Source: a virus
Reading direction: 5' to 3' (one strand)
Length of the DNA: 25,782 nt
IMG/VR virus record: IMGVR_UViG_3300033153_008107
Span: 1 to 25,782 of that record
Position numbers and translations under genes: made by a program. The notes beneath the pieces are model-generated. The model ran no database searches and was not told where the DNA came from. It saw nothing but the letters and a program-made list of their open reading frames with translations. This document shows positions 1-12,708 of the stretch, piece by piece (position 1 is the first letter of the stretch; each line of letters begins with the position of its first letter).

Positions 1-306
1 GATGCACAGGTATCTGGCAATGCACAGGTATCTGGCGATGCAAAGGTATATGGCAATGCACAGGTATCTGGCGATGCATGGGTATCTGGCAATGCATGGG
101 TATATGGCAATGCATGGGTATATGGCAATGCAAAGGTATCTGGCGATGCATGGGTATATGGCAATGCACAGGTATCTGGCGATGCAAAGGTATATGGCGA
201 TGCACAGGTATCTGGCAATGCACAGGTATCTGGCGATGCAAAGGTATATGGCAATGCACAGGTATCTGGCGATGCATGGGTATCTGGCAATGCATGGGTA
301 TATGGC
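1..306 (+). repeat. Array of 17 tandem 18-bp hexapeptide-coding units
   Basis: Seventeen exact-length 18-bp units run without a gap from the window edge, so the array may extend further left. Read in the frame beginning at base 1, every unit codes for [D/N]-A-[Q/K/W]-V-[S/Y]-G. The codons for A, V and G never change (gca, gta, ggc); only codons 1, 3 and 5 vary. Units 1-6 (1-108) and units 12-17 (199-306) are identical, giving a 108-bp perfect higher-order repeat separated by five other units. Because the unit length is a multiple of three and contains no stop, all three forward frames stay open here. Confidence 0.97.
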
Positions 307-321
307 AATGCAGGGTTTTAA

Positions 322-337
322 CTGCTTTTAAAAGCAG
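322..337. repeat. 16-bp perfect palindrome
   Basis: The sequence CTGCTTTTAAAAGCAG is its own reverse complement and lies one base after the stop of the hexapeptide frame. As RNA it could form a six-pair stem with a UUAA loop. It lies inside the restored reading frame (LTAFKS) and is not followed by a T-run, so terminator function is doubtful. Confidence 0.5.
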
Positions 338-481
338 GGATAAAAAAATTTATTGTAATCGTGGATGTTTTAAAGGGACGCTAACTGAATTTTCAAAAAA
401 AGTAAAAGAAGTGCATGGTGATAATAAGCATGGCAAGGCTTACAAAGCGGCAATAACAATGATAAGAGCGAGGTTAAAATA

Positions 482-637
482 ATGTTTACATTTGAGCAAA
501 TAAAATTACTAGGCGAACAAGGTCAAAAGCTAGCAATGGATATATATAAAAAAGGTTATGTTGATTGCTATAATCATACCAAATGTATGAGTGATCAGGA
601 AAAGAAAATACATATAAGGAGCATGAAAGATGAATAA
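482..637 (+). CDS. Small hypothetical protein, 51 aa
   Basis: An ATG at 482 overlaps the preceding stop as TAATG and opens a 51-codon frame ending TAA at 635-637. The protein begins MFTFEQIKLLGEQGQKLAMD and has a middle YVDCYNHTKCM segment with two Cys, then a lysine-rich end. The overlap with neighbours on both sides (the next start lies at 630) is typical of coupled phage genes and is the main support. I do not recognise the family. Confidence 0.6.
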   Translation: MFTFEQIKLLGEQGQKLAMDIYKKGYVDCYNHTKCMSDQEKKIHIRSMKDE

Positions 638-1541: not shown

Positions 1542-1889
1542 ATGACAAAAAGTAAAACAGATGAGTTGGTTGAGAGGATTGAACCAAAGTTAAGTAAATT
1601 CAGTTGTGTAAATGGTGATGTACAAGAGCTTCTGAAAGACTGCAAAATCCATATTTTGGAACAACATGGAGAAGTGGAAGGTTTAGATGAAGTTGTTGCA
1701 GGCGTTGTTCTGAAGAACGCAATCTTAAAGCAAAAACTAGAGCGCTTAAAAGACACTGAAACTCTAATGAAAATCATTGGAGAAACTAGCATTAGAAATT
1801 TGGCAAAAGCAATTCAAAATTATATTAATGGAAAAAAAGATGAAAAAAATACTACTAGCAGCGACCATATTGATAACGACGACGACTAG
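1542..1889 (+). CDS. Helical hypothetical protein, 115 aa
   Basis: The ATG at 1542 follows the previous stop by two bases; a TTG at 1533 in frame is less likely. The protein begins MTKSKTDELVERIEPKLSKF and is largely helical with heptad-like stretches (LKNAILKQKLERLKDTETLM), ending in a polar tail NTTSSDHIDNDDD. The last 50 bp overlap the start of the secreted protein gene in another frame. Function unknown. Confidence 0.68.
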   Translation: MTKSKTDELVERIEPKLSKFSCVNGDVQELLKDCKIHILEQHGEVEGLDEVVAGVVLKNAILKQKLERLKDTETLMKIIGETSIRNLAKAIQNYINGKKDEKNTTSSDHIDNDDD

Positions 1890-2313
1890 TCAAGCGAATG
1901 AGTTTAGCATTGTTAAGCCCGTAGCAGGTTATCATTTTAGCGACAGAGACTTTAACAATAAAGACTGGAACGAAAATTATTTAAACAGTTTGGGGTTATC
2001 TTATCGAAAAAATAATGGCTTTGGCGCGTCAATAACTTATGTAGATAAAAATAGCGTTAATAACAATGCTTGGTTTATACATGCTGAATATATTCCCACT
2101 GTGTGGAAGCAAGGTAATCATAGCGTTAACTTAGGACTTGGTTTAGGCGTTAGAAATGGCTATCCTAAAAAATCAAAAGGTAGATCAGAAACTGATTTTA
2201 TTCCTTCTGGTGCTTTGCAGGCAGAATATTGCTATGATAAGTTTTGTCCTACACTACAAGTAGTGCCATACACTAGCGGCGTTGCCGTATTTGGGTTTAG
2301 GTATAAATTTTAA
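1840..2313 (+). CDS. Secreted outer-membrane beta-barrel-like protein (PagP/Lom-like), 157 aa
   Basis: I chose the ATG at 1840 because it gives a textbook Sec signal peptide: MKK, a hydrophobic stretch, then TTTTSQA with likely cleavage before NEF. The frame is open further upstream, but those starts would bury the signal. The mature ~138 residues alternate polar and hydrophobic residues in short strands (GFGASITYV, SVNLGLGLGVRNGY, GVAVFGFRYKF) and end in Phe, the usual C-terminal residue of outer-membrane barrels. Eight-stranded PagP/Lom-like proteins are known in several phages. An inferred role is surface alteration of the host, such as exclusion of other phages. The overall fold is inferred from pattern only. 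Confidence 0.6.
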   Translation: MKKILLAATILITTTTSQANEFSIVKPVAGYHFSDRDFNNKDWNENYLNSLGLSYRKNNGFGASITYVDKNSVNNNAWFIHAEYIPTVWKQGNHSVNLGLGLGVRNGYPKKSKGRSETDFIPSGALQAEYCYDKFCPTLQVVPYTSGVAVFGFRYKF

Positions 2314-2874: not shown

Positions 2875-3075
2875 TTAATTGCAAAGCTGTTGATATTTAT
2901 CACTATGGTTAGCGATAGTTTCAAGCTCTTTATTCGTTAAATGGTCAGGGCTTGCAATAACAATATCGTTAAAATAATTACATATATAGTAATGGCTATA
3001 TAAACTTTTATCACAGCTACTTAGACACAGAATCAATAAGCTCAGAACGAGATTTCTTTGCGTTATCTTTTTCAA
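2875..3075 (-). CDS. Outer-membrane spanin-like lipoprotein (o-spanin)
   Basis: The frame has a clear lipoprotein signal: a basic start, hydrophobic LVLSLLILCL and lipobox LSSC. From the TTG at 3075 (an AAGGAA stretch lies just upstream) the Cys is residue 21, an ideal length; an ATG at 3123 would give an unusually long n-region of about 24 extra-polar residues and lacks an upstream site. The mature part is about 46 residues. It begins inside the preceding membrane-anchored gene in another frame, which is the classic Rz/Rz1 arrangement. Role: fuse outer and inner membranes at the last step of lysis. A plain small lipoprotein is the alternative. Confidence 0.6.
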   Translation of the reverse strand: MKKITQRNLVLSLLILCLSSCDKSLYSHYYICNYFNDIVIASPDHLTNKELETIANHSDKYQQLCN

Positions 3076-3259
3076 TTTCTTTTCCTTTTTTGGTAAGTTT
3101 TTTACCTGCTTTGTTGATTTCATCTTTTACAGATAAACCAAATTCATCTTCCCAATCACTTTTGATAAAGAAAACAAAATATAAAACAGTTACAAAACTA
3201 CATACAGCACCACCCAGTAAAAAACTAACTATATCAATTGGCACTGATAATATTTGCAT
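3017..3259 (-). CDS. Inner-membrane spanin-like protein (i-spanin)
   Basis: This 80-aa protein has one N-terminal membrane span (about residues 8-32, ending VLYFVFFIK) and then a charged, helical periplasmic tail rich in Lys and Glu (KKLTKKGKEIEKDNAKK). It is shorter than most Rz proteins. The downstream lipoprotein gene overlaps its 3' end in another frame, and the holin precedes it with a TAATG overlap and an AAGGA site. This makes a two-component spanin likely, acting with the lipoprotein to bridge the periplasm. Confidence 0.6.
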   Translation of the reverse strand: MQILSVPIDIVSFLLGGAVCSFVTVLYFVFFIKSDWEDEFGLSVKDEINKAGKKLTKKGKEIEKDNAKKSRSELIDSVSK

Positions 3260-5250: not shown

Positions 5251-5577
5251 CTATGAAATAAAAACAAAATCATTACCGTCTACAAAAAAGAAGTTACTTC
5301 CGTCTGCAAACATAAAATTAACATTTTCTGACAGTGATGTAACTGCGTCCCAATTCTCAAAACCGTAGGCTTGCGCAAATTGTTGCTGCAAATCACTTAA
5401 AACAAAATCATTACCAGTATAACCTAATATATCTCTTAAATAAAGATAAAGCCTTTCATTGTATTGACCAACTGTATAACCTTGCAAAGAAAGAAAAGAT
5501 AGCATATCTCCGTTAAAATCAAAAGATGTGCCAGTTCTACTTCTTAGCCAAGCCTGTAATGCGCCGTTATTAGTCAC
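5251..5577 (-). CDS. Small structural/appendage protein with aromatic octad repeat, 108 aa
   Basis: The start is GTG at 5577 with AGGAG six bases upstream. The first ~80 residues are mixed (ALQAWLRSRTGTSFDFNGDM, then a helical LSDLQQQFAQAYGFENWDAV). The last ~20 residues form repeated octads of the type F-x-F-[AV]-D-G-[SN]-[ND] (FMFADGSN, FFFVDGND, FVFIS). The same octad occurs in the tail stabilisation protein at 11098-12708. Its position between two fibre-type genes suggests it is a linker or assembly factor for them. The family is not recognised. Confidence 0.62.
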   Translation of the reverse strand: MTNNGALQAWLRSRTGTSFDFNGDMLSFLSLQGYTVGQYNERLYLYLRDILGYTGNDFVLSDLQQQFAQAYGFENWDAVTSLSENVNFMFADGSNFFFVDGNDFVFIS

Positions 5578-10700: not shown

Positions 10701-11141
10701 TTAACTCTCGTATTCCTCTTTCAAGATACTAAACAATAATGCATCTTTACCTTTATAAATCTTACGAAGCCTACCTTCTTCTGTAAACCCGCTTAATCTA
10801 AGTAAACGTATAGCTTGCTTATTATTAATTTGCACAAGTGCTATTAGACGTACATTATTATAATACTTGTTTTCAAAGAAAGTTGCAAGTATCGTTTTAA
10901 TCCGTCCTTTTGTTAAAGGAAATTTTGAATTAAAGGAAGCTATAGTCATTTCAGCTTGCATACCATCATCTAGCTCTCTGTAATCATTTAAACACCAGCA
11001 CAAATCATAATTACCTAAGTAATAGCATTGAGCTTGAGTATAATCACAATAGTGGTCTTCAAACTTATCGTTTAAAAGAGCCCCAACCACGCTATCATCA
11101 CGGATAGGTATTGAGTAATTTAAAGTTGTAGATTCCTTCAT
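10701..11141 (-). CDS. GNAT-family acetyltransferase, 146 aa
   Basis: The C-terminal half carries the GNAT pattern: a strand (NVRLIALVQ), then N-N-K-Q-A-I-R-L-L-R-L-S-G-F-T-E-E-G, the conserved acceptor-side helix and turn, then RLRKIYKGKDALLFSILKEE. The length suits a single domain. The start at 11141 is backed by a full AGGAGGTGA site inside the upstream gene, which it overlaps by 44 bp. It sits between tail stabilisation and ejection genes and would be expressed late. An acyl-CoA-dependent modification of a virion or host protein is possible; the substrate is unknown. Confidence 0.75.
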   Translation of the reverse strand: MKESTTLNYSIPIRDDSVVGALLNDKFEDHYCDYTQAQCYYLGNYDLCWCLNDYRELDDGMQAEMTIASFNSKFPLTKGRIKTILATFFENKYYNNVRLIALVQINNKQAIRLLRLSGFTEEGRLRKIYKGKDALLFSILKEEYES

Positions 11142-12708
11142 ACCAAGTCACCTCCTGCCCCGCTACAGAAAACCTCATTTGAGGGCTAAAATTATAACCA
11201 CTAGAATTAAGTATAAATTTAGGTACAGCCGTTATAGCTCCAGCCCAATCAGGCTCATCCCAAGCAGCAACATCCCAGTCAGCACCTATAGTTTCTGTTG
11301 AGGCGCTAGAAGAAAAGGGCTGCAGAGTAAAATCATAACTTAGGCTAAAATCTAGATTAAGCTCACCTTCGGCCTCTAAAAATTGAGTGGCCGCATTAAT
11401 TTGTTTTTTTCTAGCGGACCCTAAGTCACTAAAAGCCTGTCTTGCAGTCGCTTCTATAGCTAACCCATCATCTGTAAAACCAGAAAGCACGCTATATAAA
11501 ACTTGGTCTCCGCCGCCATAAAGTTTATTATCAAGAACCCCAAAAACATTAAAATCTAAATTGGAAAATTGTGTTGCAGCACCTGTAACAGTATTTATAG
11601 CATATTGCGTATAAGTAGCATTCGTGACTTGCGGCATATTTAACACTATTAACGACTGTCCCGCAAACAAAGTTAAACTAAAACCAAAATTACTACCAAA
11701 CGTTTTATAGAAATCAGTTATAGCTCCTGACAATTTAGATGGCTGCAAAATAAAGCCTTCCGCCCTAATAACATCTGAAACCTTAACTAAATCTTGCTGC
11801 GTAAGTATAAAGATATCTCCTGCAAATTCAGCAGCACACCTTTTAGCTATAATAGGAGGCGCTTTATACTTACCAACCAAAGACCAATTGGTCGCATCCC
11901 CAGGGTCTGAACCTTGGTATATAATAATCTCACCTGTATCTAGGATAAAGCAAGCATAATCATCAGGCCCGTTACCACCATCACGCGATATTGTTTTCAT
12001 CTCTATTAAGTTACCACCAGTATCACTAACATTACCCAAAGGGAACTCAGTAAATGCACCCGCAACAGCATTAACACCACCATAAAAGAAAACATTATCG
12101 TCAGTATTCCATAAATAAACTCTGTTTTTGTGCTTGTGAGCATTATCTATATTGGTAGGGCCGTAAGTATTTAAATCACCAGTAAAAGATGGTGTGGTCA
12201 GGGAAGACCCATCATAGTTTCTAGGTGCGTCAGCGCCATTAACCAATATCATGTTAGCACCTAGCTTCACATACTCCCACCTAGCATTGCTAAAACCTGT
12301 TGCTAACTCAGTCAAACTATTTGCAGTGTCATCTACATACAAAGCATCATCACTTGCCGTAATTAAAACCGAAGTTGTGCCCTCAACATAAGGTATAATT
12401 GACTCTATCTCACCAGAATAGAGTGTATTTTCAGCAAATACAAAATCATTAGTATCTACAAATACAAAATCATTAGTATCTACAAACACAAAATCAGCAC
12501 TAGATGTGGCTATACTATAGCCGCTTCTAACCTTTAAGCCGCCTTGTTGTGGAATCCAATTCACAAGCTCAATAGCATCAATAGGTGGCATCGCTGCCCA
12601 GCTATCACGAGTATTCAAACCTCCAATAGGGGATGGCAAAGGAAACGTTTGAGCTTCCGCTCTCCTCAGTTGTGCACCAGCACGCTTTGGTAAACCCTGC
12701 CTCCTCAT
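11098..12708 (-). CDS. Tail stabilisation/tubular-type protein (P22 gp10-like beta-propeller), 536 aa
   Basis: The N-terminus has PLPSPIGGLNTRDSWAAMPP followed by AIELVNWIPQQGGLKVRSGY, the opening of a class of podovirus tail proteins in which a beta-propeller caps the adaptor ring. Residues about 70-95 carry a tandem octad (DFVFVDTN twice, then DFVFAENT). The remainder is repeated beta-strands with W/Y/G loops (NRVYLWNTDDNVFFYGGVNA). The length fits. It directly follows the adaptor gene (TAATG overlap), as in other podoviruses. Role: closes the portal channel after packaging and carries the fibres. Fold assignment is by resemblance, not by alignment. Confidence 0.7.
   Translation of the reverse strand: MRRQGLPKRAGAQLRRAEAQTFPLPSPIGGLNTRDSWAAMPPIDAIELVNWIPQQGGLKVRSGYSIATSSADFVFVDTNDFVFVDTNDFVFAENTLYSGEIESIIPYVEGTTSVLITASDDALYVDDTANSLTELATGFSNARWEYVKLGANMILVNGADAPRNYDGSSLTTPSFTGDLNTYGPTNIDNAHKHKNRVYLWNTDDNVFFYGGVNAVAGAFTEFPLGNVSDTGGNLIEMKTISRDGGNGPDDYACFILDTGEIIIYQGSDPGDATNWSLVGKYKAPPIIAKRCAAEFAGDIFILTQQDLVKVSDVIRAEGFILQPSKLSGAITDFYKTFGSNFGFSLTLFAGQSLIVLNMPQVTNATYTQYAINTVTGAATQFSNLDFNVFGVLDNKLYGGGDQVLYSVLSGFTDDGLAIEATARQAFSDLGSARKKQINAATQFLEAEGELNLDFSLSYDFTLQPFSSSASTETIGADWDVAAWDEPDWAGAITAVPKFILNSSGYNFSPQMRFSVAGQEVTWYEGIYNFKLLNTYP
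11148..11156 (-). promoter_or_regulatory. Strong Shine-Dalgarno for the GNAT gene
   Basis: On the minus strand the sequence AGGAGGTGA lies six bases before the ATG at 11141, inside the 3' coding part of the upstream gene. It is a full anti-16S match and fixes the start despite the 44-bp overlap. Confidence 0.75.
12436..12483. repeat. Two perfect 24-bp tandem copies, third partial
   Basis: The 24-bp unit running 12436-12459 is repeated exactly at 12460-12483; a third copy decays after about 13 bases. It lies inside the tail stabilisation gene and codes the octad DFVFVDTN. Confidence 0.9.

Follow-up and report, generated by a model that had tools for sequence, protein, structure and literature searches.

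A frame break between the repeat array and the C-terminal domain of a phage solenoid protein gene at a contig end

Why does a repeat-protein gene that is cut by the end of a virus contig change its reading frame exactly where its repeats give way to a second domain? The record in question, IMGVR_UViG_3300033153_008107, is a virus contig of 25,782 bases (the whole stretch, referred to here as the window) with genes including those for a terminase, a portal and a major head protein, and its 5' end cuts into an array of hexapeptide repeats, i.e. the window starts in the middle of the array. The frame break is present in the deposited sequence. The original prediction had attributed it to the loss of a single T within the last repeat unit, either as a true mutation or as a sequence error in a repeat. 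Here, we compare the locus with its relatives and weigh the possible origins of the break.

An array and a C-terminal domain of one protein

The array (1-312, plus strand, frame 1, 5' end cut) is a beta-solenoid repeat of the [DN]A[QKW]V[SY]G type, in which 17 complete units of 18 nt occupy positions 1-306 and are followed by AATGCA, GGG, TTT and the TAA that closes the frame (319-321, plus strand). Units 6, 7 and 17 read AATGCATGGGT and the partial 18th unit reads AATGCAGGGT, exactly as had been noted before, together with the overlap of the domain with the following gene. The array matches the Pfam YdcK beta-solenoid (PF18836, E 1.4e-24) and, with an E value of 2e-38, the profile of phrog_7964, which identifies it as the array of that family. 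Frame 3 stays open across the whole array, so that frames 1 and 3 overlap, and encodes 56 residues of a C-terminal GCFxG domain (312-482, plus strand), apparently without its first strand. This frame ends at a TAA (480-482), which overlaps the ATG (482-484) of the next small gene in the form TAATG; the product of that gene (482-637, plus strand) matched no Pfam family.

The C-terminal part matches phage proteins as well as the families phrog_20532 (E 3.9e-12) and phrog_7964 (E 7.5e-11). Since these two families are matched by the array and by the C-terminal domain alike, we conclude that both are parts of one protein. The members of the two families, which are of unknown function and include proteins of Ruminococcus phage phiRM10, Bacillus phage phiAGATE and Mannheimia phage 587AP2, carry the repeats and the GCFxG domain in the same order as the window; however, they possess a linker between the two and a single open frame, whereas in the window the linker is gone and the gene falls into two frames. 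The YdcK family (PF18836; PDB 2F9C, 2PIG) shares the type of beta-solenoid repeat with the array of the window, but the profile match spans the N-terminal part and the array only, without the C-terminal domain, and the score remains far from the cut-off of the NCBIfam YdcK equivalog (41 of 350 bits). The gene is thus that of an ordinary phage YdcK-type solenoid protein.

The comparison comprised 82 domain copies, taken from 80 IMG/VR loci plus a single bacterial contig, and all of them show a G(S/T) linker motif in the same open frame as the domain, a result that was not selected for, because the pattern used to search IMG/VR was placed in the GCFxG region. In phage records with the domain, too, a single open frame runs through array, linker and domain. 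We also looked for relatives in which the protein stops naturally where the repeats end and the domain has a start of its own; neither a split gene nor a loss of the linker was encountered among the 82 copies. The prediction that the two parts form one protein, with its frame broken at the junction of array and domain, is therefore supported both by the shared phrog families and by the uniform single frame of the relatives. Among 26 searched records that were reached via the terminase, one had a domain match; most records reached in this way were without this gene. The domain of the window found no match in the bacterial genomes searched. When a close relative's domain served as query instead, one Leminorella contig was recovered, which likewise breaks off within the array and carries the linker.

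The segment missing at the junction

In the deposited sequence, AATGCA runs directly into GGGTTTTAAC (junction at 312-315, plus strand). In the relatives, the array is followed by a linker segment ending in (I/V/F)G(S/T)xxG (e.g. PIGSENG) and then by xLTAF...GCFxG. Among those with hexapeptide arrays, the last [ND]A is mostly separated from the position corresponding to the V of VLTAF by 13 residues (24 copies) or 19 residues (27 copies), while other spacings stem from variant arrays or from the way in which our script anchored the motif. The window retains just 2 nt at this place. The net loss thus amounts to about 37 nt, or to 55 nt if the native spacing is 19 residues, and as both values are of the form 3n+1, either accounts for the shift of the frame. 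The G(S/T) motif is found in no frame of the window, and no single open frame runs through array and domain there, which are encoded in frames 1 and 3 and separated by the TAA at 319-321. From this we conclude that the window holds either a broken member of the family or an intact one that has been mis-assembled.

An AlphaFold2 model of one relative (L114) indicates what the missing segment contributes. The C-terminal domain is modelled with confidence (means over ten residues of 84-96); the array is unreliable (pLDDT under 50 at residues 49-127), and only the end domains were used. With the numbering anchored on the invariant G138-S139, residues 131-137 (WITISPI) form a strand that directly precedes the strand of residues 142-148 (GVLTAFK). 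According to this model, the C-terminal domain has its first strand in the segment that is missing from the window. The piece between the repeats and the end domain would therefore be a conserved strand of that domain, which should aid the annotation of this common, uncharacterised phage family. A fold search found YdcK and returned nothing informative for the C-terminal domain. Judging from how its parts are arranged, the intact protein most likely acts as a rigid solenoid spacer with a small domain at either end.

Origin of the frame break

The window starts inside the array of a phage protein composed of an N-terminal domain (outside the window), a YdcK-type solenoid and a C-terminal alpha/beta domain. 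About 37 nt, or 3n+1 bases, are missing at the junction of array and domain in comparison with all relatives examined. This loss takes away the linker, with which the C-terminal domain begins as its first strand in the model, and shifts the frame, so that the deposited sequence encodes a protein stopping two codons past the partial last unit. We think it somewhat probable that this loss is an assembly or library error at a repeat boundary near the contig end, and such an error appears slightly favoured over a genuine, recent and private deletion. It is favoured because the contig starts in the array, because the 114 nt at 199-312 (plus strand) exactly duplicate positions 1-114 with an identity that stops precisely at the junction, and because the contigs of relatives often end in this array as well. 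Indeed, 25 of the 80 relatives' contigs end within 500 nt of the domain on the array side, where 1.7 would be expected from the lengths of the contigs under random placement, compared to 3 on the other side; as the 80 loci are not all independent, this excess points to a strong enrichment but gives no exact probability. Tandem repeats and repeats in viromes are known sources of assembly errors (PMC6868369, PMC6350398), in line with an artefact. Two points count against it. All 25 relatives with a contig end in the array have kept the linker, which indicates that breakage at this site does not usually cause a join of this kind. In addition, an assembler normally requires reads that contain the junction.

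A genuine deletion in the phage or in part of its population, in which about 37 nt were lost at the boundary of array and linker, the C-terminal domain was silenced and a solenoid-only protein was left, is a plausible explanation that we hold to be only a little less probable. No second frame break was seen in the window where open reading frames of related phages match it, with matches that are unevenly spread and do not reach the first 5.5 kb, and this agrees with a real mutation, as does the lack of a comparable error in the relatives whose contigs are broken in the array. However, such a loss was seen in none of the 82 domain copies, and the site, a repeat boundary with just 312 bases between it and the contig end, is of the kind at which assemblies are least to be trusted. 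Furthermore, the domain of the window retains the residues that do not vary among its close relatives and looks freshly functional; this argues against a long decay, and the lesion would then be either very recent or not real. Exact scans of IMG/VR with 22 bases of the domain sequence and with the 19-base junction yielded no second record, in a collection that may withhold near-identical ones. Mutation and sequence error, the two options named in the original prediction, both remain live.

That a real loss of the linker segregates among the phages of this population, with a small deletion at the repeat boundary switching off the C-terminal domain in some members and the solenoid kept, seems to us improbable. 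Still less credence can be given to the absence of a single T from the 18th repeat unit, whether by mutation or by sequencing error. Unit 17 and the broken unit are indeed alike over AATGCA.GGGT, but the one-base proposal at 312/313 rests on matching the break to a further repeat unit, which the relatives reveal to be the wrong comparison, since a conserved linker follows their array where the window proceeds from AATGCA with about 37 nt missing. Nothing corresponding to the joined peptide NAWVLTAFKS occurs in the relatives examined, which without exception have a G(S/T) linker before xLTAF. As this linker is the first strand of the domain in the relative's model, a repair of the frame by one base would still give a protein without that strand. 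Least of all do we believe in a natural two-frame gene, whether read by programmed -1 frameshifting or with its C-terminal domain translated on its own: frame 3 has no stop along the entire array and overlaps frame 1, and a heptamer GGGTTTT lies at 313-319, but this only slippery-like heptamer is out of phase (0-frame GGG TTT T), so that a -1 slip does not keep the pairing, the sole close upstream in-frame ATG (294) lies inside a repeat unit and has no ribosome-binding site, and the relatives encode both parts in one frame in 82 of 82 cases.

The frame break therefore probably reflects no functional arrangement. Since contigs of this phage family end inside arrays far above chance (25 of 80), we advise caution at such arrays, where frameshifts, unit counts and contig ends should not be taken as biology without reads. 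A literature search returned general papers on repeats and assembly and none on this protein.

Further observations in relatives and in the window

A virus record of 204 kb (G001) contains at least 5 genes with this C-terminal domain (L007, L088-L093), all in one frame, with arrays that vary in length between genes. Pentapeptide repeats of the ANLSG type also precede linker and C-terminal domain (L089, L098, L134, L151, L176 and others), so that the domain is common to different kinds of solenoid.

Elsewhere in the window, an open reading frame at 1777-2313 (plus strand), with a likely start near 1837, encodes a protein that begins like a signal peptide and matches phrog_3600 (E 8.6e-12; annotated as antimicrobial peptide resistance and lipid A acylation protein PagP) but no Pfam family, and thus appears as an outer-membrane-type accessory gene within the phage. 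At 2875-3259 (minus strand), upstream of an endolysin (Glyco_hydro_108), two small open reading frames overlap in different frames, one of them with a lipoprotein-like LCLSSC motif, and resemble a nested Rz/Rz1 spanin pair. The product of 10701-11141 (minus strand), which sits amid structural genes, weakly matches with its C-terminal third the acyl-CoA N-acyltransferase phage family phrog_4470 (E 1.4e-5). Finally, a 24-nt tandem repeat of 2.6 copies lies within a structural gene at 12435-12496 and encodes the peptide repeat FVFVDTND, which is resembled by FFFVDGNDFVF in the open reading frame at 5251-5577.
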